Below the pieces are notes generated by a model. It saw only the letters and a list, made by a program, of their open reading frames with translations, did not search any database and was not told where the DNA came from. A program made the translations under genes and the position numbers. Source: Vicinamibacterales bacterium (lineage in GTDB: Bacteria > Acidobacteriota > Vicinamibacteria > Vicinamibacterales > UBA8438). From it: a stretch of DNA of 63,393 nucleotides. The stretch is taken from assembly GCA_029940535.1 (NCBI GenBank), contig JAPYUM010000006.1:23009-86401 (forward strand), in the 5' to 3' direction. This document shows, in pieces, positions 32,316-63,294 of this stretch. Position 1 is the stretch's first letter. Each line of letters starts with the position of its first letter.

Positions 32316-33920
32316 TCACGGCGTCGCGGTGATACCGACGCACGCCTCGACGGCTTGTGCGGTGGCGTCGCGTTCGCCGGCCGCGTCCACCCTAGTCCAG
32401 TCGAGGTCCCCGATGCCTCTCGCGAGTTGCTCTCGGAGCACGGCCGGCGTGGCGTCCGAGACATCGCCGGACCGTCGCGCGATTCGGTCGGCGCGGGTGT
32501 CGACGGGGGCGTGGAGCCAGACCCCGGTAAACGGGACGCCAGCGGTACGGGCGACATCGGCGATCACGACTCGGTCGCGGGGGTCGGCGAACACCGCGTC
32601 GACGATGACGGAGTGGCCCGCCGCGGCCGCGGTGGCGGCCCGGACCGCCAGTTCGCGATACACGCTACGAGTGACTCCCTCAGTATAGCCCTCCGAGCCA
32701 AGGCGGTCGGCCGGCCCCACGCCGAGCAGTGATTTCCGTATTACGTCGCTCCGGAGCACCAGGGCGCCCGGCGCCGCGCCGATGGTCGGGGCCAGCCGCT
32801 TGGCAACCACAGACTTGCCGGCGCCGCTGAGCCCTCCGATGGCGACGAGTCGGGCGGGCGCCGGGTCAATCAGCGACAAGGCCAGGGTGAGATAGTCCTG
32901 GGCCGCCTGCCGCTGCACCGCTTGCGCTGTGGGGGTGCTCTGGAGCCGGGCCGCCGTCGCACTGGTCTTGGCCCGGACCGCGGCGCGGACGGAGAGAAAC
33001 AGCGGCATCAGCGCGAGTCCATCGAGGTCCGCCGTCGCGGTGACGTACTCGTTGCACACCGCGTGAGCGTGTTGACCCAATCCGCGATGAAGCAGGTCCA
33101 TGACGAGGAAGGCGAGGTCGTAGAGCACATCAATGCAGGCGATCTGGTCGCTGAACTCGATGCAGTCGAACAGTATGGGGCGTCCCTCGAGGAGACAGAC
33201 GTTCCGTAGGTGCAGATCGCCGTGGCAGCGACGCACGAATCCCTCGGCGCGTCGCGTCATCAGACGGTCGGCCTGTCGGGAGAGTGCTTCGTGCGATCGC
33301 GTTGTGAGTCGGAGGCAGGCGGCGGGGTCGAGCACACCCGGGCCATAATCGTGGAATCCGTCCGCGTTCCCGTCGATGACCCACGCCATGCCTCGCCGAC
33401 CGCCATGGTCGAATCGCCACTCTGCGATGGCGTGCAGCCGTGCCACCGCTCGTGCGAGATTCGGCATCAGCGCCAGGTCCAGCGCGCCTCGTTCGGCCAT
33501 ACCGTCGAGCACATCGGACTGGTCGAAACGCGACATTTCAATGAGCCATTCCACGGCGGGGCCGTCCCCGTCCAGCGCGAGGGATCCGTTCGCGTCGCAG
33601 GTCACCGCGCGCACTCGATGATACACGGACGGGGCCGTGCGCCGGTTCAGGCGCACTTCCGCCAGGCAGCACTCGCGTCGGCGCTCAACGGTGGAGTAGT
33701 TGAGATAGTCGTATTGCAGCGCGCGTTTCAGCTTGAACGCCCGCTCATCGACAAGGAACACCACTGAACAGTGTGTGTCGATGCGCTCCACCGTTCCGGC
33801 GGTCGACCCGTACGCGGCGGGGAACCCGAGAAAGGCGATGACGTCGCGCTGGTTGACCGTCGCCCCCTGACTGGGGTCGTGGGGGCTGTCGGGTTCGACC
33901 GCGGTTGTCGTGGAGCGCAT
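32316..33920 (-). CDS. Bifunctional aminoglycoside-phosphotransferase-like / AAA kinase (Rv2004c-like)
   Basis: 534 residues, cytoplasmic. The N-terminal two-thirds is an APH-like kinase domain: FKLKRALQYDYLNYST, catalytic RRCHGDLHLRNV with Asp235, and ILFDCIEFSDQIACIDVLYD. The last third is a P-loop kinase: GGLSGAGKS with Lys369, RSDVIRKSLLG, and GHSVIVDAVFADPRDRV. The architecture matches the mycobacterial DosR-regulon protein Rv2004c and similar proteins near Usp genes. Substrate unknown. A purine-rich GGAAGAG precedes ATG 33920 and an exact sigma-54 promoter lies at 33948-33963. It is divergent from the 34179 gene and shares a control region with it. Confidence 0.88.
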   Translation of the reverse strand: MRSTTTAVEPDSPHDPSQGATVNQRDVIAFLGFPAAYGSTAGTVERIDTHCSVVFLVDERAFKLKRALQYDYLNYSTVERRRECCLAEVRLNRRTAPSVYHRVRAVTCDANGSLALDGDGPAVEWLIEMSRFDQSDVLDGMAERGALDLALMPNLARAVARLHAIAEWRFDHGGRRGMAWVIDGNADGFHDYGPGVLDPAACLRLTTRSHEALSRQADRLMTRRAEGFVRRCHGDLHLRNVCLLEGRPILFDCIEFSDQIACIDVLYDLAFLVMDLLHRGLGQHAHAVCNEYVTATADLDGLALMPLFLSVRAAVRAKTSATAARLQSTPTAQAVQRQAAQDYLTLALSLIDPAPARLVAIGGLSGAGKSVVAKRLAPTIGAAPGALVLRSDVIRKSLLGVGPADRLGSEGYTEGVTRSVYRELAVRAATAAAAGHSVIVDAVFADPRDRVVIADVARTAGVPFTGVWLHAPVDTRADRIARRSGDVSDATPAVLREQLARGIGDLDWTRVDAAGERDATAQAVEACVGITATP

Positions 33921-33947: not shown

Positions 33948-33963
33948 AGCAACACGCGTGCCA
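33948..33963 (-). promoter_or_regulatory. Sigma-54 promoter of the APH/AAA kinase gene
   Basis: Minus strand TGGCAC-N5-TTGCT, an exact -24/-12 element with the required GG-N10-GC. Expected transcription start is about 15 bases before ATG 33920. The palindrome pair at 34035-34074 lies 70-110 bp upstream. Confidence 0.8.
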
Positions 33964-34034
33964 CGGATGTCGCCCGGACGGGACGGGGCGCCATGCGCGA
34001 GGCGGGTGTCTCGCCCATCGATCCGAAGAGGGCC

Positions 34035-34074
34035 GCGGGAAATTTTTCGTCGCTGTGGCGCGGAAAATCACCCA
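34035..34074. promoter_or_regulatory. Candidate activator-binding palindrome pair, shared by divergent genes
   Basis: GCGGGAAATTTTTCGT (34035-34050) and CGCGGAAAATCACCCA (34059-34074) resemble the better palindromes at 53593 and 53615. They sit between two divergent sigma-54 promoters: the left copy is about 80 bp from the minus -24 element and about 72 bp from the plus one. Confidence 0.55.
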
Positions 34075-34113
34075 CATCGAATGCGACCAGAGACGGGCTT
34101 GGGGCCTGGCTCG

Positions 34114-34129
34114 TGGCACGTCGATTGCT
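34114..34129 (+). promoter_or_regulatory. Sigma-54 promoter of the membrane-protein pair
   Basis: TGGCAC-GTCGA-TTGCT is an exact -24/-12 match. Expected start is near 34141, about 38 bases before ATG 34179. Confidence 0.8.
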
Positions 34130-34178: not shown

Positions 34179-34778
34179 ATGACGGAGCTTCTGGAAGCGG
34201 TTGGGAGTAGCGGCTTCAGTATGGCCTGGAAACAGTCGACGACCGGATTCGTGTCCATGCTGGCCTTTCACAGCATCGGCCTCGCCTTTGTGATGGGCAT
34301 CAGCTGTGCGATTGCCATGCGCGTGCTCGGCGTGGCGCGCGCGATACCACTGGCGCCGTTGGAGGACTTTCTCCCGCTCATGACCGCAGGCTTCTGGGTC
34401 AGTGCGGTCACCGGCGTCATGCTACTGGTCATGGACCCGGTCCGTATCGTCCCGGATGCGACGCTCTACATCAAGCTGGGGGCGGTCGCGTGGGTCATGG
34501 TCCTCATCCGAAGATTCCGAGCGCACATCTTCGGTGAGGGAGCCAAACTGGATTCCCCGGCGGGAGTGAAGCGCGCCAAGACACTGGCGACACAGGTGCT
34601 GCTCGTCTGGGGTGTCGCGTTGGTGTCCGGGAAGGTCATGGCCTATACCTGGGTCGCCGGATACCAGACGGCGATCGCGGTCATCATCGTCACCGTCGCG
34701 GCGGGGCTGGTCGGGCGTTTTCTGCTGGGGTGGGGCAAGCCGGTTAACCAAGCCGATCCGTCTAGGCAGGCCGCGTAA
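34179..34778 (+). CDS. Multi-TM membrane protein, paralogue of the next gene
   Basis: 199 residues, about five membrane segments, no signal peptide. The stretch SMLAFHSIGLAFVMGISCAI followed by MRVLGVARAIPLAPLEDFLP parallels LHIAGLVLLVGIVG and LRLMGVAKRLPIAPLRQLLP of the next protein, so the two are paralogues. The His of the H-x2-G-L motif lies inside the membrane and could bind haem or copper; this is inference. AAGGG precedes ATG 34179. It is first in a three-gene set (34179, 34823, 35351) under a sigma-54 promoter. Confidence 0.75.
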   Translation: MTELLEAVGSSGFSMAWKQSTTGFVSMLAFHSIGLAFVMGISCAIAMRVLGVARAIPLAPLEDFLPLMTAGFWVSAVTGVMLLVMDPVRIVPDATLYIKLGAVAWVMVLIRRFRAHIFGEGAKLDSPAGVKRAKTLATQVLLVWGVALVSGKVMAYTWVAGYQTAIAVIIVTVAAGLVGRFLLGWGKPVNQADPSRQAA

Positions 34779-34822: not shown

Positions 34823-35338
34823 ATGGACCTGGAGTCTGGAATTGCTTACTGGCTGAGGTGGCCCAGCGTCGAGGCGTTTCTGGCCGCCTACACTTGGGCC
34901 TGGCCGCTGATGGAGATCCTGCACATCGCCGGTCTCGTTCTCCTCGTCGGTATCGTGGGCATGTTCGACTTGCGATTGATGGGCGTGGCGAAACGCCTGC
35001 CGATCGCGCCCTTGCGCCAGCTCCTGCCGTGGGCCGCGTTCGGGTTCATCCTGTGTGTCGGCTCCGGGCTGGTCTTTGTGACAGGTCTCATGCAGAACGT
35101 CAGCATGCATCCCTATGTCGCGATCAAGGTGGACCTCTACCTGCAGATCAAGCTGCTGTTCATTCTTCTCGCCGGTATCAACCTGCTCGTGTTCTATCAG
35201 AGCGGCATGTCTCGGGCGGTCGACGGCCTGGGGGCCGGCGATGACGCGCCCCCGCTGGCCAGAGCCATCGGTGGAATCTCGCTGTTTCTGTGGATTGGCG
35301 TCGTGTACTGGGGCCGGCTGGTCCCATGGGGCATTTAG
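34823..35338 (+). CDS. DUF6644-like multi-TM membrane protein
   Basis: 171 residues with four to five membrane segments, a conserved MEILHIAGLVLLVGIVG segment and a second charged/aromatic segment SMHPYVAIKVDLYLQIK. I associate this with proteins annotated DUF6644 that often sit near cytochrome genes, but am not certain. A Shine-Dalgarno-like AAGGGGG lies before ATG 34823. It is probably co-transcribed with the paralogue upstream and the 39-residue gene downstream, and may form a hetero-oligomer with them. Confidence 0.7.
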   Translation: MDLESGIAYWLRWPSVEAFLAAYTWAWPLMEILHIAGLVLLVGIVGMFDLRLMGVAKRLPIAPLRQLLPWAAFGFILCVGSGLVFVTGLMQNVSMHPYVAIKVDLYLQIKLLFILLAGINLLVFYQSGMSRAVDGLGAGDDAPPLARAIGGISLFLWIGVVYWGRLVPWGI

Positions 35339-35546: not shown

Positions 35547-35583
35547 CGTGGTGTTTTCCCCACTGGCTGCGGAAAAATCCAGC
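35547..35583. promoter_or_regulatory. Candidate activator-binding palindrome pair
   Basis: CGTGGTGTTTTCCCCA (35547-35562) and TGCGGAAAAATCCAGC (35568-35583) lie about 21 bp apart. The second is about 70 bp from the -24 element at 35646. Each is a half-conserved version of TGGGGAAATTTCCCCA. Confidence 0.5.
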
Positions 35584-35645: not shown

Positions 35646-35661
35646 CGGCATCACTGTTGCA
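35646..35661 (+). promoter_or_regulatory. Sigma-54 promoter of the monooxygenase-like gene
   Basis: CGGCAT-CACTG-TTGCA keeps GG-N10-GC and the full -12 TTGCA. Expected transcription start is near 35672, upstream of both candidate starts (35687 and 35726). Confidence 0.65.
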
Positions 35662-35725: not shown

Positions 35726-37075
35726 ATGGTGCGCTTGAAATCATGGCGGTTCGGTCTGACGGCGGCTCTCCTTGGGCTTGCGCTCATGTGTCCGGTCGTT
35801 GCGTCAGCGGCTGAGGCGGTAGACGAGCAGCCTTCGTTCACGAAAGACATCGCTCCGATCTTTCGTGACAAGTGCGAGGCCTGCCATCGGCCGGGATACA
35901 TCGCGCCGATGTCCTTGCAGACCTACGCCGAAGTGAGGCCCTGGGCCCGGTCGATCAAGCAGCGCGTCGAATCGCGACAGATGCCACCGTGGCACATCGA
36001 CAAGGCGGTTGGGGTCCAGTCGTTCAAGAACGACCGCTCGATGACCGACGCGGAAATCGAAACCGTCGTTCGGTGGGTCGACAATGGGGCGCCGCAAGGC
36101 AATCCGTCAGATCTGCCGCCGGCCGCCGTGTTCGCGGATGACGATGTTTGGAACTATGCGGACTTCTTTGGCGGTCCCCCTGACGTGGTCATCCACTCCA
36201 CACCCTACACGATGCCGGCGCTCGCCCAGGACCACTGGTGGAAACCGGAAGTATCCACGGGTCTGACCGAGGACCGCTGGATCCGTGGCATAGAGATCCG
36301 GCCCACCACGGTGCCTGGCCGCCGCATTACGCACCACGCGTTGGCGCGCCTTCAGCAAGAAGAAGAGGATGAGGCGCTGGGCGCAGCCTCCGACATCGGT
36401 CCCGGCCTGTTGATGGAGTGGGCGGTCGGCAAGCAGGGCGAGATCATGCGTCCGAACAGCGGCAAATTGATCAAGGCCGGCTCGAGCATCGTCTGGGATA
36501 TCCACTATCACGCCGTCGGCGAGCAGATCACGGACACCGTGGAGCTTGGTCTGTATCTCTACCCGAAGGGGGAGGAGCCGAAGTTCAGACAGGTGCTGGC
36601 GGCGTTCAGCACGTTCGAAGGGGGGCGCGAAGCGCTCTCGATTCTGCCGAATCAGGTCACCGTCACCGAGGCCTTTCATGTCATGAAGCAGAACGGCCGG
36701 ATCGAGAACTTCCAGCCGCACCTGCACCTGCGAGGTCGCGGGATGCAGATGGAAGCGATTCTGCCTGACGGTGAACGGCGGGTGTTGAGCCTGGTCAGCA
36801 AGTTCGACTTCAACTGGCACAACAACTACGTCTATGCCGACGACGCGGCGCCGCTGCTGCCCAAGGGGACCGTGCTGGCGTTCAAGGCCTGGTACGACAA
36901 CACCGCCGGGTTGCGGGGCAACCCAGATCCGAACCAGTGGGTTGGCTGGGGCGACCGAACGGTGGACGAAATGGGCCATGCCTGGGTCAACGTCACCTAT
37001 CTCGACGATGCCGACTTCGAGGCCGCCACCGCCGAGCGCGCAGCGACACTCGAAACCGCGACGGACGAGGAATAG
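35726..37075 (+). CDS. Secreted haem c / copper-monooxygenase-like protein
   Basis: 449 residues from ATG 35726 (GGACGGAG just upstream). The signal peptide ends in VVASAAE. An N-terminal cytochrome c-like domain has Cys50-x2-Cys53-His54 (KCEACHRPGYIAPMSL). The rest resembles copper type II ascorbate-dependent monooxygenases: ITHHALARL, DIHYHAVGEQ and FQPHLHLRGRGMQMEA supply paired His and Met copper ligands. Such fused proteins are frequent in Acidobacteriota; the substrate is unknown. It is under a sigma-54 promoter and followed 42 bases later by a secreted protein gene. ATG 35687 is an alternative start. Confidence 0.82.
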   Translation: MVRLKSWRFGLTAALLGLALMCPVVASAAEAVDEQPSFTKDIAPIFRDKCEACHRPGYIAPMSLQTYAEVRPWARSIKQRVESRQMPPWHIDKAVGVQSFKNDRSMTDAEIETVVRWVDNGAPQGNPSDLPPAAVFADDDVWNYADFFGGPPDVVIHSTPYTMPALAQDHWWKPEVSTGLTEDRWIRGIEIRPTTVPGRRITHHALARLQQEEEDEALGAASDIGPGLLMEWAVGKQGEIMRPNSGKLIKAGSSIVWDIHYHAVGEQITDTVELGLYLYPKGEEPKFRQVLAAFSTFEGGREALSILPNQVTVTEAFHVMKQNGRIENFQPHLHLRGRGMQMEAILPDGERRVLSLVSKFDFNWHNNYVYADDAAPLLPKGTVLAFKAWYDNTAGLRGNPDPNQWVGWGDRTVDEMGHAWVNVTYLDDADFEAATAERAATLETATDEE

Positions 37076-38271: not shown

Positions 38272-38335
38272 ATAGATGACGGGCAGGCGTAGCGGTCTGG
38301 TGGGTATCACGCGTCGGACTAGGCGGAGGAGATTT

Positions 38336-39178
38336 GTGACAGCGGATGACAGTGTGACGCGGTCGGATTCTGGGCGGTGGTCGGCCGAAGGAATGGCGCT
38401 CGGCGCGCTCTTCGTCTTGGTCGGTCTGCTCGGCGTTGCCTACGGTGCCCGGTCCTGGTTTCCGGAGCTGGCGTCGCGCCACGGTGCCGGCATCGACGCG
38501 ATGCTCAACTACCTGCTGGTGTCGACCGGTGGACTGTTTCTCGTCGGACACCTGGTCTTGGGCCTGTTCATCTGGCAGGGCAGCCGGAGACAGCGTGTCA
38601 GTCGACGGTCGGCGACACCTCGGGCCGAGCGGCGCCTGTCGGTCGGCCTCGGTATGTTGATGGCGCTGATCGCGGAAGGCGGCGTCCTCGCGATCGGCAT
38701 CCCTGTCTGGGGCGAGTACTACATGTCCGACACGCCGGACGACGCAGTGGTGATCGAGGTGACCGGGACCCAGTTCATGTGGCACGCGCGATACCCGGGA
38801 CCAGATGGGCAGTTTGGTCGCCTCCGCCCGGAACTGATCGATTCGGCGTCCAATCCGATCGGCCTCGATGCCGACGACCGGCGCGCCGCCGACGACGTGG
38901 TGTGGACGGGCGAGGTCTATGCCCCCGTCGACCGCACCATCCTGATTCGACTCCGTTCGACCGACGTCATCCACAGCTTCTTCGTACCCAGCCTGCGGGT
39001 GAAGCAGGACGTGGTGCCCGGGATGACACCGGACGTCCAGTTTGTCGCCACCCGTGAAGGGCGATTCGATATTGCCTGCGCGGAACTATGCGGCCTGGGC
39101 CACTACCGCATGCAGGGGTTCTTCAACGTCGTGACTGACACCGAGTTCGATCGGTGGCTGCGCGAGCAAGGGTCATAG
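38336..39178 (+). CDS. coxB: Cytochrome c oxidase subunit II
   Basis: 280 residues from GTG 38336, with GGAGGA just upstream. Two N-terminal membrane segments anchor it, then a cupredoxin domain faces the periplasm: VIEVTGTQFMWHARYPGPDG, DVIHSFFVPSLRVKQDVVPG and the CuA site Cys248-x3-Cys252-x3-His256-x2-Met259 (CAELCGLGHYRM), all ligands present. It accepts electrons from cytochrome c and passes them to subunit I. No haem c domain is attached. First gene of a seven-gene run ending in the ZIP gene. Confidence 0.93.
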   Translation: MTADDSVTRSDSGRWSAEGMALGALFVLVGLLGVAYGARSWFPELASRHGAGIDAMLNYLLVSTGGLFLVGHLVLGLFIWQGSRRQRVSRRSATPRAERRLSVGLGMLMALIAEGGVLAIGIPVWGEYYMSDTPDDAVVIEVTGTQFMWHARYPGPDGQFGRLRPELIDSASNPIGLDADDRRAADDVVWTGEVYAPVDRTILIRLRSTDVIHSFFVPSLRVKQDVVPGMTPDVQFVATREGRFDIACAELCGLGHYRMQGFFNVVTDTEFDRWLREQGS

Positions 39179-39182
39179 CCGG

Positions 39183-40925
39183 ATGGACGAGCCGCGGGGA
39201 TTCCTACGCCGATACGTGTTCAGTACCGACCACAAGGTCATCGGCATCCAGTACATCCTGACCGGTCTGGTCATGGGGTTGTTCGGCGCCGGTCTCGCGG
39301 TGCTGATCCGCCTGCAACTGGGCTGGCCGGAGGTGCCCAAGACGCTGCTTGGTGTGTGGCTGCCGAACGGGATGCCGGGCGGCATCATGACGCCGGAGTT
39401 CTACCTGGCCGTCGTGACCATGCATGGCACCATCATGGTCTTCTTCTTCATCTCGTACGTGCTGGTCAGCGGATTCGGCAACTATCTCGTCCCGCTCCAG
39501 ATCGGCGCCAAGGACATGGCGTTCCCCCTGCTCAACATGCTGTCGTTCTGGGTGGCCTTGTTGTCGGCGGTGGTCATGTTGTTGTCGTTTCTGGTGGAGG
39601 GGGGCGCCGCCGCGGCCGGGTGGACGGCCTACCCGCCGCTCAGCGCCGTCGCCTCCGCGGTGCCGGGGTCGGCTCTCGGGCAAAGCGTCTGGCTGCTCAG
39701 CATGGCCTTGTTCATCGCGTCATTCACGATGAGCGGCCTCAACATTGTCGCCACCGTCTTCAGCCTGCGCGCGCCCGGGATGTCGATGATGCGGCTGCCC
39801 TTGACGGTCTGGTCGTACTTCATCGCGTCCATTCTTGGCGTCCTCGCGTTCCCACCGTTGACGGCCGCCGCGATCATGCTGCTGTTCGACCGGCATCTTG
39901 GCACCAGCTTCTTCTTACCGGCTGGGCTTGTCATCGGCGGCACGGTTCTCCCGCACCAGGGCGGGTCGCCGTTGCTCTGGCAGCACCTGTTCTGGTTTCT
40001 GGGGCATCCGGAGGTGTATGTCCTGATCTTGCCGGCCCTGGGGATTGCCGCCGACATCCTGCCGGTCTTCACTCGCAAGCCGCCGTTCGGATATCGCTGG
40101 TCGGTCTACTCGCTCATCGCGGTCGGTGCGCTCAGCATGGTCGTCTGGGGCCACCACATGTTCGTCAGCGGGATGAGTCCGTTCACCGGTGAGTACTTCT
40201 CGCTGGCGACGTTGACCATCACGGTCCCGATGGCGATCTACGGCGTCAACATGCTCGGTAGCGTCTGGGGGGGAGCCGTGCGTCTGACGTCTCCCATGGT
40301 GTGGTCCCTGGGCGTCATCGCGCTGTTCGGAAGTGGCGGCTTCGGGGGCATCTACCTGGGAAACGCGACCGCCGACATGCAGCTCCACGACACCTACTTC
40401 GTCGTCGGACACTTCCACCTGATGATCGGTGGGGTGACGATGTTCGGCATGTTCGCCGGTATCTATTACTGGTTCCCGAAGATGTTCGGGCGCTTGATGC
40501 ACGAAGGCCTGGGGAAGGCGCACTTCTGGGCGACGTTCGTGCCGTTCTTCATGGTGTTCTTCGCGCAGCACTTCCAGGGACTGCAGGGCATGCCACGTCG
40601 CTATTACGCGTTCTCGACCTACGAGTACCTGCGAGAGGCGGCGGCACAGAACGGCGTGATTTCCATGCTGGCGATAGCGGTCGTCGCCGGACAATTCATC
40701 TTCCTGGCGAATTTTCTGTGGAGCCTGTTTCGTGGCCGCGTGGCCGGGGAGGATCCGTGGCAGGCGACCACCCTCGAGTGGACCGTGCCATCACCGCCGC
40801 CGCACGGGAACTTCGTGGCCCAGCCGATAGTCCGCCGTTGGCCCTACGACTACAGTGTCGACGGCGTGAGCCACGACTACGTGCCACAGACGGCGACGGC
40901 GTCCGAGGCCGCGGTGACATCGTAG
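39183..40925 (+). CDS. coxA: Cytochrome c oxidase subunit I
   Basis: 580 residues with about 12 membrane segments. Haem and CuB ligands: HGTIMVFFFISYVLVSGFGN, FLGHPEVYVLILPALGI (His-Glu-Tyr, A1-type), WGHHMFVSGMSPF and LHDTYFVVGHFHLMIGG. The reaction centre is complete, so it should reduce oxygen to water and pump protons. It lies four bases after coxB and before the two subunit III genes. A1-type assignment rests on the HPEVY Glu. Confidence 0.97.
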   Translation: MDEPRGFLRRYVFSTDHKVIGIQYILTGLVMGLFGAGLAVLIRLQLGWPEVPKTLLGVWLPNGMPGGIMTPEFYLAVVTMHGTIMVFFFISYVLVSGFGNYLVPLQIGAKDMAFPLLNMLSFWVALLSAVVMLLSFLVEGGAAAAGWTAYPPLSAVASAVPGSALGQSVWLLSMALFIASFTMSGLNIVATVFSLRAPGMSMMRLPLTVWSYFIASILGVLAFPPLTAAAIMLLFDRHLGTSFFLPAGLVIGGTVLPHQGGSPLLWQHLFWFLGHPEVYVLILPALGIAADILPVFTRKPPFGYRWSVYSLIAVGALSMVVWGHHMFVSGMSPFTGEYFSLATLTITVPMAIYGVNMLGSVWGGAVRLTSPMVWSLGVIALFGSGGFGGIYLGNATADMQLHDTYFVVGHFHLMIGGVTMFGMFAGIYYWFPKMFGRLMHEGLGKAHFWATFVPFFMVFFAQHFQGLQGMPRRYYAFSTYEYLREAAAQNGVISMLAIAVVAGQFIFLANFLWSLFRGRVAGEDPWQATTLEWTVPSPPPHGNFVAQPIVRRWPYDYSVDGVSHDYVPQTATASEAAVTS

Positions 40926-41010
40926 GCGTCCACGGGGACCTTTGCGTGCCGCTCGGTTCGAATGCTGCATGACCTTCGTCTCGGGCGGCGAAACGGTTGA
41001 GGAGAACGTG

Positions 41011-41610
41011 ATGACCACTCTGCGCGCCACCACCACTACCTGGACCGGCCCGGGACGCATCGAGCGGGAGCAGCTCGTCCAGTTCGGCGTGTGGATGTTT
41101 CTCGCCACGGTGGTGATGCTCTTTGCGGCGTTCACGAGCGCCTACATCGTCCGACGCGCCGGCACCGACTGGCGGTCGATCGCCATGCCGTCGGTGCTGT
41201 GGCTCAACACCATCGTGCTTGGCGCCAGCAGTCTCGCGGCTGAGGTGGGTCGACGCGCGGCTGAGCGGTCTCGATGGAGTGCAGCGCGAAAGGGGTTCAT
41301 CGGTGCGGTGTTGCTAGGGGTCGTGTTCTTGGGCGGGCAGCTTGCCGGCTGGCGCGCACTCGCGGAGTTGGGGGTGTTCGTGCCGACGTCGCCGCAGGCG
41401 TCGTTCTTCTACATGTTGACCGGGGTGCACGCCGTGCACCTCATGGCCGGTCTGGTCGTCCTGCTGGTGACGTTGCCGGCGCTCCGCGCCGCGGGCGGGC
41501 CGACCCTCGGCGCCGTGTCTCCTGGAGTCCGCGCACGACTGGCGGCGACGTTCTGGCATTTCTTCGGCGCGCTCTGGGTCTACCTCTTCGTGCTGTTTGC
41601 CTGGTTCTGA
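41011..41610 (+). CDS. Cytochrome c oxidase subunit III-like protein (first)
   Basis: 199 residues from ATG 41011, with GAGGAG upstream; five membrane segments. Subunit III marks: LVQFGVWMFLATVVMLFAAF, GVHAVHLMAGLVVLL and WHFFGALWVYLFVLFAWF. It stabilises the oxidase and its proton uptake. The next gene is a second subunit III, an arrangement seen in several Acidobacteriota and Bacteroidota operons. Confidence 0.9.
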   Translation: MTTLRATTTTWTGPGRIEREQLVQFGVWMFLATVVMLFAAFTSAYIVRRAGTDWRSIAMPSVLWLNTIVLGASSLAAEVGRRAAERSRWSAARKGFIGAVLLGVVFLGGQLAGWRALAELGVFVPTSPQASFFYMLTGVHAVHLMAGLVVLLVTLPALRAAGGPTLGAVSPGVRARLAATFWHFFGALWVYLFVLFAWF

Positions 41611-43716: not shown

Positions 43717-43754
43717 AGGTGAAACTTTTCGATGCCGCCATGAAATTTTCCCCG
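43717..43754. promoter_or_regulatory. Candidate activator-binding palindrome pair
   Basis: AGGTGAAACTTTTCGA (43717-43732) and CATGAAATTTTCCCCG (43739-43754) are spaced exactly 22 bp centre to centre, as at 53593/53615. The second is about 78 bp from the -24 element at 43825. Confidence 0.55.
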
Positions 43755-43824: not shown

Positions 43825-43840
43825 TGGATCGAAGTATGCA
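43825..43840 (+). promoter_or_regulatory. Possible sigma-54 promoter of the cytochrome gene
   Basis: TGGATC-GAAGT-ATGCA keeps GG-N10-GC but departs from consensus at three other positions. Expected start near 43852, 80 bases before ATG 43932. The upstream palindrome pair is the main support. Confidence 0.5.
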
Positions 43841-43931: not shown

Positions 43932-44471
43932 ATGCGAGCAGCGCTTCTCGTGGTGATGATGTTCGGTCTGACGGCAGGCAGCGTAGGGGCACAGACGTCT
44001 CTGGAGACGCCGCCGGTTGGCACCCTGGCTCAGATCATGCGCGGCATCTATTTTCCGAACTCGAACATCATCTTCGATACACAGATGCAGGACCCGGACG
44101 CGGAGCCGGAGAAGAACGCCACCGGGGGGACGGTCAGCAGCACATTCGCCGGTATTTACACCGGCTGGCCGGTGGTCGAGAACGCGGCCCTCGTGCTGGC
44201 TGAAGGGGCGAGCCTCATCAATAAGCCGGGGCGTCTCTGCGAGAACGGGCGGATGGCTCCGGTCCAGCGGTACGACTGGCTGAAGTACTCACGCGAGATG
44301 ACCGACGTCGGCTGGGCGATCTATCAGGCCGCGCTTGAAAAGGACCAAGAGGCAGTTGGCGAACTGACGAACGACCTCGCGCAAGCCTGCGACAACTGTC
44401 ATCGGGTCTATCGCAGTAACGCACAGGGAGCCTCCCTGCGCTGTCTGGGAAGCGGCATCATCCTTCCCTAG
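43932..44471 (+). CDS. Periplasmic class II-like cytochrome c
   Basis: 179 residues from ATG 43932, signal peptide ending SVGAQTS. The single haem motif is near the C-terminus: Cys153-x2-Cys156-His157 (ACDNCHRVYR), the usual place in cytochrome c'-type four-helix bundles. Upstream text (LAQIMRGIYFPNSNIIFDTQ) is characteristic of a family frequent in Acidobacteriota. It may transfer electrons or bind NO. GGGAGAG precedes the start. Single gene followed by a hairpin. Confidence 0.85.
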   Translation: MRAALLVVMMFGLTAGSVGAQTSLETPPVGTLAQIMRGIYFPNSNIIFDTQMQDPDAEPEKNATGGTVSSTFAGIYTGWPVVENAALVLAEGASLINKPGRLCENGRMAPVQRYDWLKYSREMTDVGWAIYQAALEKDQEAVGELTNDLAQACDNCHRVYRSNAQGASLRCLGSGIILP

Positions 44472-47931: not shown

Positions 47932-48348
47932 TCACCGGGGTTCGGACAGATAGCGCACGAAGTCCGCCTCGGTCAGGATGCCGGTCATGCGGTCACCGTC
48001 CACCACCGGCAGACAGCCGTACTTGTTCTCGAGCATGACCCGCCCGGCCGTGGCCACATCTGAATCCGGCGCGACCACCTCGACGTCCAGGGTCATAATG
48101 GACTCCACCTTGACCTCGCTCATGACGTCGTGCTGGGCCGACAGCGTCAGGTCATCGGTCGGCGCCAGCGCCCGCTGCATCAGGTCGCGTTGGGAGACGA
48201 GCCCGACCACCGCGCCGTCCTCGTCGACCACCGGAAGGTGCCGGATACCGTGGCGATCCATCAGGTTCCGGGCGGTCTGCAGGTCGTCGTCGGGGGCCAC
48301 CGCCACCGGGTCATCGGTCATGAGGTCTGCTGCGCGCAGTTTGGTCAT
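47932..48348 (-). CDS. CBS-pair protein 1
   Basis: 138 residues made of two CBS motifs: AADLMTDDPVAVAPDDDLQT to GIRHLPVVDEDGAVVGLVSQRD, and VESIMTLDVEVVAPDSDVAT to GCLPVVDGDRMTGILTEADF. Stand-alone CBS pairs bind adenine nucleotides and sense energy state; Rv2626c (Hrp1) of M. tuberculosis is a known stress-induced relative. GGAGG precedes ATG 48348. A possible sigma-54 promoter lies at 48383-48398. Confidence 0.93.
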   Translation of the reverse strand: MTKLRAADLMTDDPVAVAPDDDLQTARNLMDRHGIRHLPVVDEDGAVVGLVSQRDLMQRALAPTDDLTLSAQHDVMSEVKVESIMTLDVEVVAPDSDVATAGRVMLENKYGCLPVVDGDRMTGILTEADFVRYLSEPR

Positions 48349-48382: not shown

Positions 48383-48398
48383 TACAACCTTCGTGCCA
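48383..48398 (-). promoter_or_regulatory. Possible sigma-54 promoter of CBS-pair protein 1
   Basis: Minus strand TGGCAC-N5-TTGTA: perfect -24, T in place of C at -12. Expected start about 24 bases before ATG 48348. Confidence 0.5.
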
Positions 48399-53592: not shown

Positions 53593-53630
53593 TGGGGAAA
53601 TTCCACCAGGCCTTTCGGGAATATTCCCCA
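53593..53630. promoter_or_regulatory. Best activator-binding palindrome pair (divergent promoters)
   Basis: TGGGGAAATTCCACCA (53593-53608) and TCGGGAATATTCCCCA (53615-53630) are spaced 22 bp centre to centre, two helical turns. The second contains the perfect palindrome GGGAATATTCCC. Between two divergent sigma-54-like promoters: 70 bp from the minus -24, 68 bp from the plus -24. Confidence 0.65.
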
Positions 53631-53690: not shown

Positions 53691-53706
53691 CGGTACGAGA
53701 GTTGCT
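53691..53706 (+). promoter_or_regulatory. Sigma-54 promoter of the 58-residue membrane protein gene
   Basis: CGGTAC-GAGAG-TTGCT: exact -12 and only the first base of the -24 differs. Expected start near 53717, 17 bases before ATG 53734, with GGAG in between. Confidence 0.7.
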
Positions 53707-53733: not shown

Positions 53734-53910
53734 ATGACTACGCAACAGGCAAACGGGCTCAAGCGCACTGGTTCAGTTGCCGGCGCCGGCGCGGTCGTGG
53801 CCGCCATCGGTATGTTCGCGGCGGCGCCCACCGCGATCGCCGCCGGACTACTGGTCTGCTGGGGGATTGCCTTCGTGACGCTAATTGGGTACATCGACAC
53901 GCTGTCGTAG
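53734..53910 (+). CDS. 58-residue membrane protein
   Basis: ATG 53734 follows GAAGGAGAACGAGACG. Two hydrophobic segments, SVAGAGAVVAAIGMFAAAPT and AIAAGLLVCWGIAFVTLIGY, joined by a short turn, with no charged residue after the first 12. The strong ribosome site and the sigma-54 promoter with two activator palindromes make it a real gene, although no family is recognised. A small membrane protein induced under the same condition as the Usp/CBS proteins. Confidence 0.75.
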   Translation: MTTQQANGLKRTGSVAGAGAVVAAIGMFAAAPTAIAAGLLVCWGIAFVTLIGYIDTLS

Positions 53911-54132: not shown

Positions 54133-55491
54133 TTAGCTTCGCGTCAGGCCGAATTTCTCGATCCGATATCGGATCTGGTCCCGGTTCAGCCCCAGCAATG
54201 TGGCAGCTCGGGTCTGGTTCCACTGCGTGCGTTCGAGCGCTTGGGCGACCAGGCCGCGTTCCAACTGCTCCAGATTCGTGCCCCCGGCGGCGAGTTCCAT
54301 GCCGCCGGACGTGGCTGGACGCGACCCTAGCATCGGGAAGTCACCCAGCGTGAGCAAGTCGCTGTCTGTCAAGAGCATGGCGCGCTCGGTCGCGTTTCGA
54401 AGCTCTCGGACATTGCCCGGCCACGGATACTGTTCGAGTGCCTCGAAGACCTCCGGGGCGGCGCCCTGGACCTGTTTCCGGAACTCGCGGTTGAACAGGT
54501 CGATGTAGTACTTGGCCAGCACCGAGATGTCGGCTGCCCGCTCCCGCAAGGGGGGCAACCGCACGGGCAGCACGTCGAGTCGATAATACAAGTCCTCACG
54601 AAACAGGCCTTGCTTCACCGATTCCTCGAGATTCCTGTTTGTCGCCGCGATGATCCGGACGTCGACCTGGATGTCCTGCGCGCCACCGACCCGCTTGAAG
54701 GTCTTCTCTTCCAGGAACCGAAGCAGCTTGGATTGCAGACCGGGCGACATCTCCCCGATCTCATCGAGAAACACCGACCCACCGTCAGCCGACTCCAGGA
54801 GGCCGCGCTTCTGTTGTCGTGCGTCGGTGAAGGCGCCACGCTCGTGGCCGAACAGTTCGCTCTCCAGCAGGGAATCGGTGAGGGCCGAGCAGGTGATGTT
54901 CATGAAGGGCTGGGCGGCGCGGCTGCTCGCGTAGTGAATGACCTTCGCGGCGAGATCTTTCCCGGTGCCGCTCTCTCCGGTGAGGAGGACCGTGGACGCT
55001 GGACTGGCCGCAATCTTCACCAGCAGGTCTTTGATCTGCTGCATGGCCGGCGAGCCGCCCACGATCTTGTCGATGCTCCACGGTTTGGCCTGGTTCGCCC
55101 GTAGCGCTCGCACCTCGCGCCGCAATCGTGTGGTTTCGAGCGCCTTCTCGACCAGTACGGCGATCTCGTCCAGGTTGAACGGTTTGGTGGCGTAGTGATA
55201 CGCCCCCTCCTTCATGATCTCGACCGCCGTCGCCACGTTCGAGAAGGCGGTCAGCAGAATCACCAGCACGTCAGGCTCGCGGCGACGCACCTCTTTCAGC
55301 ACCTCGAGGCCGTCGGTGTCGGGCAGCCGGTAGTCGAGCAGGACCAGGTCGACGCCCTCGCTGAGTTTGGCCAGCGCCGCGGCACCGGTATCCGCCTCCA
55401 GGGTCTTGTATCCGTCCTGAGAGAGCCGTTCGACGAGCGACCAGCGGATGAGTTGCTCGTCGTCGACTACCAGAACCGTCGCTTTCGCCAT
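54133..55491 (-). CDS. NtrC-type sigma-54-dependent response regulator
   Basis: 452 residues from ATG 55491. REC domain with phosphoacceptor Asp53 (LLDYRLPDTDG); AAA+ domain with Walker A GESGTGKD (Lys178), the sigma-54 contact loop GAFTDA (219-224, Asp for the last Gly of GAFTGA), Walker B GGSVFLDEIGEM and the sensor region; C-terminal Fis-type helix-turn-helix NQTRAATLLGLNRDQIRYRI. It should activate sigma-54 promoters when phosphorylated. There is no Shine-Dalgarno site; TATAAT lies nine bases before ATG, so the mRNA may be leaderless. Divergent from a PAS kinase that is the likely partner. Confidence 0.95.
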   Translation of the reverse strand: MAKATVLVVDDEQLIRWSLVERLSQDGYKTLEADTGAAALAKLSEGVDLVLLDYRLPDTDGLEVLKEVRRREPDVLVILLTAFSNVATAVEIMKEGAYHYATKPFNLDEIAVLVEKALETTRLRREVRALRANQAKPWSIDKIVGGSPAMQQIKDLLVKIAASPASTVLLTGESGTGKDLAAKVIHYASSRAAQPFMNITCSALTDSLLESELFGHERGAFTDARQQKRGLLESADGGSVFLDEIGEMSPGLQSKLLRFLEEKTFKRVGGAQDIQVDVRIIAATNRNLEESVKQGLFREDLYYRLDVLPVRLPPLRERAADISVLAKYYIDLFNREFRKQVQGAAPEVFEALEQYPWPGNVRELRNATERAMLLTDSDLLTLGDFPMLGSRPATSGGMELAAGGTNLEQLERGLVAQALERTQWNQTRAATLLGLNRDQIRYRIEKFGLTRS

Positions 55492-55506: not shown

Positions 55507-55739
55507 CAGAGGGGCAGTGTTGGCTGGGTCCGGCGTCGGCTCCGCATTCTTGCCGTCCGCCGATCCAGCGCGGCTGCCCCCAGAGCCGCCTCCATGTGTG
55601 TGCGAGGTTTCCCGCATGACCACCTCCGGCGATCCGCGCGCTGGCACCCAACTGCGCGCTGATAGGATGTCTGTAGAACCAGGGTGCGCCGTTTCCCGTG
55701 CCACCGCTTCCCACTGCCTCAACGCAAGAGTCACGCCAG

Positions 55740-56810
55740 ATGCAAGATTCCGCCGACGCCGCCTCCGGGTCGCTCTTCAAGGAGCTCCGTGACATCCAGT
55801 ACGCTCTCGACAGGTCCGCGATCGTCGCCACCACCGATGTCGCGGGGAAGATCACTGCTACCAACCAGAAGTTTCGTGACATTTCCGGCTACTCGGAGTC
55901 GGATCTCCTCGGCCAGGACCACCGCATCATCAATTCCGGACATCATTCGAAAGAGTTCTTTCGCAATCTGTGGAGCACCATCGTTGGGGGAGAGGTGTGG
56001 ACGGGCGAGCTCTGCAATCGAGCCAAGAACGGCAACGCGTATTGGGTCGACACCACAATCGTGCCGTTTCTCGACGACGCAGGCGTGCCATATCAGTACA
56101 TGGCGATCCGCTTCGAGATCACGGGGCGAAAGCGAGCCGAGACCAAGCTGCGGGAACAGGAGACGTTGGCCCGACTTGGAGAGATGGCTGCCGTCGTGGC
56201 GCATGAAGTGAAGAACCCGCTCGCTGGCATCCGCGGCGCCCTGCAGGTCATCAGCGGTCGGATGCCAGCGGATGCGCCGGACGTGGCGGTGCTCGGGGAC
56301 ATTCAGGACCGGATCGATGGGTTGGACCAGATGGTTCAGGATCTGTTGGTGTTTGCGCGGCCGACGCCACCAACGATGGGACAGACCGCCCTGTTGCCGC
56401 TCATCTCGGGAACCGTGTCGATGCTCAGCCAGGATTCGGCCTGGGCTGGGGTGGAGATCGTCGTGCCTGAGACGGCGCCGACCCTACGCGTGGATGCGGC
56501 ACAGCTTCAGGTGGTGCTTTTCAATCTCTTGCTGAATGCGGCCCAGGCAGTCGGGGGCGATGGGCGGGTCGAGGTTGCGGTGGACACAACGCCTGAGTGG
56601 TGCGAGATCCGTGTAGGCGACGATGGGCCCGGCCTCGACCCCGCGGTTCGGGACAGGCTGTTCGAGCCGTTTGTCACCACCAAGCATCGGGGGAGCGGGC
56701 TGGGGCTGGCCACGGCCAAGCGCGTGGTCGAGATGCATCACGGCACGCTCGTCGCCGACTCTGGACCGAACGGGGGCACCGTCCTGTCGATTCGCCTGCC
56801 GGTCGAGTGA
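55740..56810 (+). CDS. PAS-domain sensor histidine kinase (NtrB-like)
   Basis: 356 residues from ATG 55740; GTG 55698 would add 14. No membrane segment, so cytoplasmic. PAS domain of about residues 20-130 (ALDRSAIVATTDVAGKITAT, GYSESDLLGQDHRIINSGHH). H-box VVAHEVKNPLAGIRGA (His near 155), N-box LLNAAQAVGGDGRV, G1 VGDDGPGLD, G2 HRGSGLGLATAKRVVE. Of the NtrB type by H-box. The PAS with a -PAC tail may bind haem or flavin. It most likely phosphorylates the divergent NtrC-type regulator. Confidence 0.92.
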   Translation: MQDSADAASGSLFKELRDIQYALDRSAIVATTDVAGKITATNQKFRDISGYSESDLLGQDHRIINSGHHSKEFFRNLWSTIVGGEVWTGELCNRAKNGNAYWVDTTIVPFLDDAGVPYQYMAIRFEITGRKRAETKLREQETLARLGEMAAVVAHEVKNPLAGIRGALQVISGRMPADAPDVAVLGDIQDRIDGLDQMVQDLLVFARPTPPTMGQTALLPLISGTVSMLSQDSAWAGVEIVVPETAPTLRVDAAQLQVVLFNLLLNAAQAVGGDGRVEVAVDTTPEWCEIRVGDDGPGLDPAVRDRLFEPFVTTKHRGSGLGLATAKRVVEMHHGTLVADSGPNGGTVLSIRLPVE

Positions 56811-62310: not shown

Positions 62311-63294
62311 ATGACTCGTTCAGCATTCGCTTCCGGTGTCCTCGTCAGCGGGATGGTGGCCACCCTCGCGGGGCCGGCTGTGGCGCAGAACGCCGCGGAC
62401 TACACGCCCACGAGGCTGGCCGACGGCCAACCCAACATCACTGGGATGTGGAACAACTCGAGGGCGATGTTCACGCCGCTCGAACTACCAGAGGAACTGG
62501 CCGGGAAGGAACTGTCGGCGGAGGAACTGCAGGCTCGTGCCCAGGCGCGCGGCGAGGGGCGGATCGCTGGGTCTGAGTGGAAGGGCCACGAGAACTCGCG
62601 CGGGGTCGGCGGCTACGGTACCTACTGGTTCGACTGGTACTGGGAGACGCCAGACGACATCGGCCAAGCGTCGATTATCGTCGACCCGCCCAACGGTCGC
62701 ATTCCCCAACGGACCGCCAACGCCCGGGAGTCGGTGGCGATGAACCTGGCCGAACTGCACGATCAGGCGGGGAACATGGAATCGGGCGACCGTTGTATCT
62801 CTCGGGGCGTGCTCGGCATGATGATGCCCACCGAATACAACAACGGCACCCTCATTCTGCAGTCGCCCGGTTACGTCACGATTCACAGCGAAATGATCCA
62901 CAACGTCCGAATCATTCCGATCGACGTCCCGCACGCCGACACCAAGGTGAAGCAATGGGAAGGCGATCCGCGCGGGCGCTGGGAAGGCAACACGCTGATC
63001 GTCGAGTCGACCAACTTCAAGGCGGTCAAGAACATCCGTGGCCCGACGGCGGGGACACGGTCGAGACAGTCTGAGAAGCAGCACATGGTCGAGCGGTTCA
63101 CCGTTGTCGGTCCCGATGAAATCCGGTACTCGGTCACGATGAACGACGAAGACACCTACACCGCGCCCTGGACCGCGGCGTTCCCGTTCAACCGCGACGA
63201 CGAGTATCTGCAGTTCGAGTATGCGTGCCACGAGGGCAACTATTCGGTGCCGAACGCGCTCGGCGGCGCCCGGCAGGAAGAGGCCGGCCAGTAG
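62311..63294 (+). CDS. Secreted hypothetical protein of the Acidobacteriota 'LADGQPNITGMW' type
   Basis: 327 residues from ATG 62311 (AAGGAGAAACG). Signal peptide VSGMVATLAGPAVAQN. Starts with the LADGQPNITGMWNN motif and has ESVAMNLAELHDQ, GDRCISRGVLGMMMPTEYNN, GDPRGRWEGNTLIVESTNFK and RFTVVGPDEIRYSVTMNDED, all typical of large paralogous families in Acidobacteriota that accompany quinoprotein dehydrogenases and Ton-B receptors. Probably a periplasmic partner of the neighbouring dehydrogenases. Function unproven. Confidence 0.85.
   Translation: MTRSAFASGVLVSGMVATLAGPAVAQNAADYTPTRLADGQPNITGMWNNSRAMFTPLELPEELAGKELSAEELQARAQARGEGRIAGSEWKGHENSRGVGGYGTYWFDWYWETPDDIGQASIIVDPPNGRIPQRTANARESVAMNLAELHDQAGNMESGDRCISRGVLGMMMPTEYNNGTLILQSPGYVTIHSEMIHNVRIIPIDVPHADTKVKQWEGDPRGRWEGNTLIVESTNFKAVKNIRGPTAGTRSRQSEKQHMVERFTVVGPDEIRYSVTMNDEDTYTAPWTAAFPFNRDDEYLQFEYACHEGNYSVPNALGGARQEEAGQ

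Follow-up and report, generated by a model that had tools for sequence, protein, structure and literature searches.

Palindrome pairs in a Vicinamibacterales genome are probable sigma-54 enhancers of an NtrC-type redox/oxygen regulon

The window, by which we mean the whole stretch of 63,393 nucleotides of Vicinamibacterales DNA that was analysed, contains two neighbouring palindromes at 53593-53630, and the question is which protein they serve. A sequence-only reading had put the two copies 22 bp apart, had listed three further pairs within the window, and had judged a single shared activator likely from their common, enhancer-like geometry. Both the first pair and the other three were recovered, with the sequences and positions given in Table 1. 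We consider it probable (around 0.8) that the pairs represent the sigma-54 enhancers of an NtrC-type redox/oxygen regulon, in which the response regulator encoded at 54133-55491 would act on the paired sites and the kinase encoded at 55698-56810 would be its partner.

Table 1. Predicted elements and genes of the putative regulon within the window
Feature	Position	Strand	Remark
Pair 1, distal operator TGGGGAAATTCCACCA (predicted)	53593..53608		pair ranks first genome-wide in both paired-site models, R1 and R2
Pair 1, proximal operator TCGGGAATATTCCCCA (predicted)	53615..53630		matches matrix and paired-site model
Pair 2, operators (predicted)	34037..34050 and 34060..34073		foreign-genome matrix and paired-site model
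Pair 3, operators (predicted)	35548..35561 and 35570..35583		foreign-genome matrix and paired-site model
Pair 4, operators (predicted)	43719..43732 and 43740..43753		foreign-genome matrix and paired-site model
Sigma-54 promoter CGGTACGAGAGTTGCT (predicted)	53691..53706	+	68 bp from proximal site of pair 1
Perfect sigma-54 promoter TGGCACGTCGATTGCT (predicted)	34114..34129	+	consensus match; beside pair 2
Perfect divergent sigma-54 promoter TGGCACGCGTGTTGCT (predicted)	33948..33963	-	consensus match; beside pair 2
Sigma-54 promoter CGGCATCACTGTTGCA (predicted)	35646..35661	+	9 of 12; pair 3
Sigma-54-like promoter TGGATCGAAGTATGCA (predicted)	43825..43840	+	9 of 12, weakest; pair 4
NtrC-type response regulator, inferred activator	54133..55491	-	receiver, AAA+ with GAFTDA, Fis-type HTH
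Soluble PAS histidine kinase, inferred partner	55698..56810	+	FAD-type redox PAS (MmoS/Aer/NifL-like)
Target: 58-aa conserved membrane peptide gene	53734..53910	+	gene of 66% identity in L062 and a similar one of 58 aa in L033, each preceded by pair and promoter
Target: membrane protein gene	34179..34778	+	followed by 34823-35338; L062 orthologue also with pair and promoter
Target: APH-AAA_33 kinase-like protein	32316..33920	-	behind divergent sigma-54 promoter
Target: protein carrying a single CxxCH haem site	35726..37075	+	first gene before haem-copper oxidase genes 38276-41610
Target: cytochrome c'-like protein	43932..44471	+

The motif was derived from other genomes. Orthologues of the regulator in other genomes defined 17 loci from which sigma-54-like promoters were collected, leaving out the genome of the window, and the regions upstream of these promoters were subjected to a palindromic motif search with eight seeds. 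Seven of the eight, unrelated ones among them, converged on nGGGAAATTTCCCn. The core of the operator is conserved over about 12-14 bp (GGGAA-N2-TTCCC), two-thirds of the clearly classifiable sites are even-centred palindromes, and the centre-to-centre spacing within pairs is 18-24 bp across species. The sequence-only reading had proposed a matrix and a search of the genome and its relatives. A 14-bp matrix made from the other genomes only, and thus blind to the window, yielded the four pairs at 34037 (spacing 23), 35548 (22), 43719 (21) and 53594 (22), next to one weak and spurious pair at 62888, and the motif recurs in relatives. At a strict cut-off (summed score 17.5, spacing 18-24, and a promoter of at least 9 of 12 within 30-105 bp) the window holds four pairs, all four with a promoter, versus a mean of 0.17 pairs and 0.005 pairs-with-promoter in 200 first-order shuffles of the window. 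Chance palindromes or transcript hairpins, which find some support in the general abundance of short palindromes in genomes and in the number of single sites scoring at least 8 (65 in the window versus about 47 in the shuffles), are rejected because of these shuffle statistics, and the pairs are moreover conserved before orthologous genes, so that practically no weight is left for this explanation.

A genome-wide ranking gave the same picture. The paired-site profile R2, made from sequence only out of 49 foreign pairs with the genome of the window excluded, was searched against the 4.83 Mb, and the four pairs of the window, which covers 1.3% of the genome, came out as the four best places; a first model (R1) had recovered two of the four. 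The E-values of these genome searches are rough, as the calibration was shortened. R2 also matched C162, C193 and C161, which look like chance because no promoter above 7 of 12 is found near the centre of these loci, and the recognisable sites of the genome are clustered on this contig. Within the held-out loci, which come from genomes that played no part in training, the spacing of the pairs is concentrated at 19-23 bp with almost none at 10-18, and 41% of the pairs have a promoter of at least 10 of 12 within 30-105 bp, versus 1.4% for randomly chosen positions of these loci. A lack of motif enrichment at sigma-54 promoters, which the sequence-only reading had named as speaking against it, is thus the opposite of what was observed.

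The -24/-12 consensus by itself is uninformative at the level of the genome (546 matches with at most two mismatches versus 987 for a reversed control), and of the window's five promoters, two (35646 and 43825) reach just 9 of 12. With the centre of the nearer site and the first -24 base as end points, the distance is 68 bp for the promoter at 53691 (+), 69 bp for 35646 (+) and 78 bp for 43825 (+). The range of 68-80 bp that had been claimed for all four pairs therefore stands for three of them. It fails for 34037/34060, where the nearer copy lies 47 bp from 34114 (+) and the other copy 80 bp from 33963 (-); this one pair is located between two divergent promoters. The two are the only perfect matches to TGGCACG-N4-TTGCW in the 4.83-Mb genome, and they point apart around a single enhancer pair (33948-34129), so that this pair probably drives transcription in both directions. 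Another near-perfect promoter, TGGCACGAAGGTTGTA (48383-48398, -), is situated immediately upstream of the CBS gene 47932-48348 and has no recognisable operator pair.

The distance between site and promoter is phased at 10.5 bp, both in a set of 50 that includes the window distances with strong promoters (Rayleigh p 7e-5) and in 40 non-redundant gene clusters (p 4e-4), as well as in the held-out loci alone, which exclude those of the window (n=27, p 0.014). Preferred distances are about 48, 59, 69, 80 and 90 bp, and the window distances of 47, 68, 69, 78 and 80 bp lie near these peaks. Like sigma-54 enhancers, the pairs consist of dyad sites that are repeated ahead of a -24/-12 promoter, and they show the helical-phase constraint at short loop length that is expected for such enhancers without strictly defining them. 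The earlier suggestion that the pairs are placed like NtrC-type enhancers thus appears well founded, considering the promoter adjacency and the phasing. GGGAA-N2-TTCCC is nevertheless a generic palindrome and the set of targets resembles hypoxia regulons, which would also suit operators at which a redox protein of, e.g., the FNR/CRP or LuxR type activates or represses without sigma-54. Given the strong -24/-12 elements near the pairs, the helically phased distance, the co-occurrence of the pairs with a sigma-54 activator and the tandem arrangement two turns apart, which is the usual enhancer layout, we consider such operators very improbable.

Which sigma-54 activator uses the enhancers is a separate matter, as the genome contains 16 matches to PF00158 and the protein cannot be told from four sites by themselves. 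The distribution over genomes is more telling. Within the order, 77 of 162 genomes have an orthologue of the regulator and 74 have pair matches. Among the 144 held-out genomes, pairs occur in 46 of the 59 that are regulator-positive versus 13 of the 85 that are regulator-negative (Fisher OR 19.6, p 3e-14, a value that overstates the evidence because the genomes are not independent by descent). At least two of the latter 13 (G051 and G060) do possess the gene, which is truncated or fragmented in the assemblies (L099, L117, L110), and 13 of the 59 regulator-positive genomes show no pair match at the threshold used. When only carriers of the nearest paralogue are considered, the regulator keeps an OR of 15.8 (p 3e-10), and the paralogue has no predictive value for pairs once the regulator is known. 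Furthermore, 22 of 83 held-out matches lie within 5 kb of the regulator, where 0.3% is expected (p about 1e-36). The recognition helix LNRDQIRYRIEKF hardly varies among 17 orthologues and was found in none of the 13 other activators of the same genome that were examined. Considering that the pairs track the regulator and not its nearest paralogue, adjoin its gene, and go with a recognition helix that is unique among the activators examined, their use by another sigma-54 activator of the genome is improbable, and the single shared activator proposed by the sequence-only reading is most likely the regulator encoded next to pair 1. The pairs, the promoters, the phasing and the link to the regulator are all supported by sequence statistics.

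The regulator possesses the domains PF00072, PF00158 and PF02954, all above cut-off, and thereby the architecture of the NtrC family; rpoN was found in the genome. The loop that contacts sigma-54 reads GAFTDA and not GAFTGA in the regulator and most orthologues, GAFTGA being present in L069 and L075. This counts against the proposed role, although GAFTDA has been listed as a variant compatible with sigma-54 activation, and DVU2106 of D. vulgaris, which carries it, has assigned promoters (PMC4641369). Over its full length the regulator resembles the AtoC and NtrC models and NtrC-family structures such as 4l4u. It shares the receiver-AAA+-Fis architecture with NtrC, AtoC and ZraR, but the scores for these equivalogs stay under the NCBIfam cut-offs (AtoC 470 vs 714; NtrC 409 vs 559), and since this holds for every equivalog listed, the protein was taken to be none of the named regulators.

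The kinase gene, divergent from the regulator gene, has a syntenic counterpart in most orthologous loci, although some relatives lack an FAD-type kinase beside the regulator. The best structural match of the PAS domain is MmoS PAS-A (3ewk, E 4e-47), followed by Aer and NifL, all of which are flavin redox sensors. In Aer, His53, Trp70, Asn85 and Arg115 contact the flavin (PMC9668731). The corresponding positions are conserved in the FAD-type orthologues of the kinase, with His for Arg in L063. In three loci the kinase near the regulator has a FixL-like PAS instead of the FAD type (L065:7351-8334, L069:9253-10305 and L075:8322-9305). Those of L065 and L069 match solved FixL haem domains (E 2e-36 to 2e-38), and the alignment of L065 retains the RHD motif, which in FixL holds the haem-ligand His. 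There is thus an apparent exchange of sensors, FAD PAS versus FixL-type haem PAS, beside a conserved regulator. Two of these three loci, L069 and L075, are also the ones with GAFTGA. Since both kinds of PAS report oxygen or redox, the signal of the kinase is likely oxygen or redox as well. PAS domains are versatile, and in some relatives neither kinase type is adjacent to the regulator, which would fit a correct cis code combined with a kinase that answers another cue. Given the four conserved positions of the flavin pocket, the FixL-type kinases in three relatives and the respiratory targets, we regard this as unlikely, though with a real chance of being correct.

The targets were assigned with a simple rule, which picked the wrong frame in some cases; with this proviso, the genes that follow pairs with a promoter frequently encode c-type cytochromes, Usp, NifU-like and CBS proteins, CcoI-kind (Cu-type) P-type ATPases, chaperones and the regulator itself. 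Genes similar to the one with the single CxxCH site are located behind pairs in L084, L086, L113 and L119, and the upstream layout is kept at the orthologues of two window targets in L062, that of the 58-aa gene also in L033. The APH-AAA_33 fusion has an architecture like that of Rv2004c of the DosR regulon of M. tuberculosis.

Taken as an oxygen/redox-responsive sigma-54 system, the locus suggests the following mechanism. Each palindrome would be the site of one dimer of the regulator, and paired sites, separated by roughly two turns of the helix and thus lying on the same face of the DNA, would nucleate an activating oligomer. Via a short, helically phased loop, this oligomer would contact the sigma-54 RNA polymerase, bound to a -24/-12 promoter at a distance of 47-90 bp. 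The kinase probably senses cellular redox or oxygen by its FAD-binding PAS and would phosphorylate the regulator, and we infer that activation takes place at low oxygen or under reduced conditions. The phosphorylated regulator would then switch on genes for c-type cytochromes, universal-stress, CBS and membrane proteins, and probably the haem-copper oxidase. A wider suggestion, which we put forward tentatively and at somewhat less than even odds, is that this constitutes the main oxygen/redox persistence regulon of the Vicinamibacterales and perhaps of some other Acidobacteriota/Planctomycetota. It would then be the sigma-54 equivalent of the DosR and FNR programmes, with a single operator code and a single regulator, and with a sensor kinase that can be of the FAD-PAS or of the FixL-type haem kind.

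Several known systems are comparable. The hypoxia-induced NmpR regulon of Myxococcus xanthus depends on sigma-54 and an NtrC-like response regulator, has two palindromes at each promoter, and counts among its targets CBS and Usp proteins, a Cu-type P-ATPase with a cbb3 oxidase, and the operon of the regulator itself (PMC11841059). In NmpRSTU, the operator is GCGCA-N5-TGCGC with 14-15 nt between the sites, and the sensor is a protoglobin-kinase phosphorelay (PMC11841059). The likeness, which comprises the NtrC-type regulator, the paired palindromes, sigma-54 and overlapping kinds of targets, is a functional one; here, the operator is GGGAA-N2-TTCCC with centres 18-24 bp apart and the kinase has an FAD-PAS. 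Membership in the NmpR regulon was considered and rejected because the sequence and the spacing of the operator differ. With NifL-NifA and MmoS-MmoR the system shares a flavin PAS redox sensor tied to sigma-54 activation, and among solved structures the PAS of the kinase is closest to PAS-A of MmoS, the FAD-PAS sensor that feeds the sigma-54 activator MmoR. Unlike in those systems, a simple soluble kinase is encoded divergently from an NtrC-type regulator, and the targets relate to respiration and stress, not to nitrogen fixation or methane oxidation. The three relatives in which the kinase next to the regulator has a haem PAS of the FixL type recall FixL-FixJ, but FixJ is not known to be a sigma-54 activator and the genome of the window has the FAD type. 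The DosR dormancy regulon of Mycobacterium tuberculosis overlaps in its kinds of genes (Usp, Hsp20, CBS and the APH-AAA kinase Rv2004c), but DosR is of the LuxR type, has another operator and is not known to use sigma-54.

A search of the open-access literature retrieved no paper with this operator and no operator described for any sigma-54 activator of the Acidobacteriota. As predicted here, the system adds a previously undescribed case to the sigma-54 enhancer regulons, a class that is known. The Acidobacteriota are abundant and poorly cultured, and a complete predicted circuit (sensor class, regulator, operator, promoter geometry and targets) can be read from the sequence; therefore, the oxygen/redox response of uncultured relatives could be predicted from their genomes. 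In addition, the 10.5-bp phasing provides naturally occurring data on the geometry of the loops that short sigma-54 enhancers form, and the exchange between FAD- and FixL-type sensors bears on the swapping of signalling modules.

Outside the order the operator signal is weak. All five genomes with R2 matches at E < 0.05 are regulator-positive, and at E 0.3 the presence of the regulator does not separate the genomes (12/18 vs 9/18). L159, from a member of the Phycisphaerae (Planctomycetota), encodes a homologue of the regulator with 54% identity and has two operator pairs with -24/-12 promoters (L159:4641 and L159:8459), and the operator code may thus reach beyond the Acidobacteriota. Several genomes, namely G025 (L076), G137, G138, G121, G127, G129 and G130, contain two copies of the regulator, mostly adjacent and on one contig. 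Finally, the regulator and pairs are present at 66% GC in L157, titled 'Bifidobacterium breve isolate HRS-HS13-bin-114', a title that looks like that of a mislabelled acidobacterial bin.
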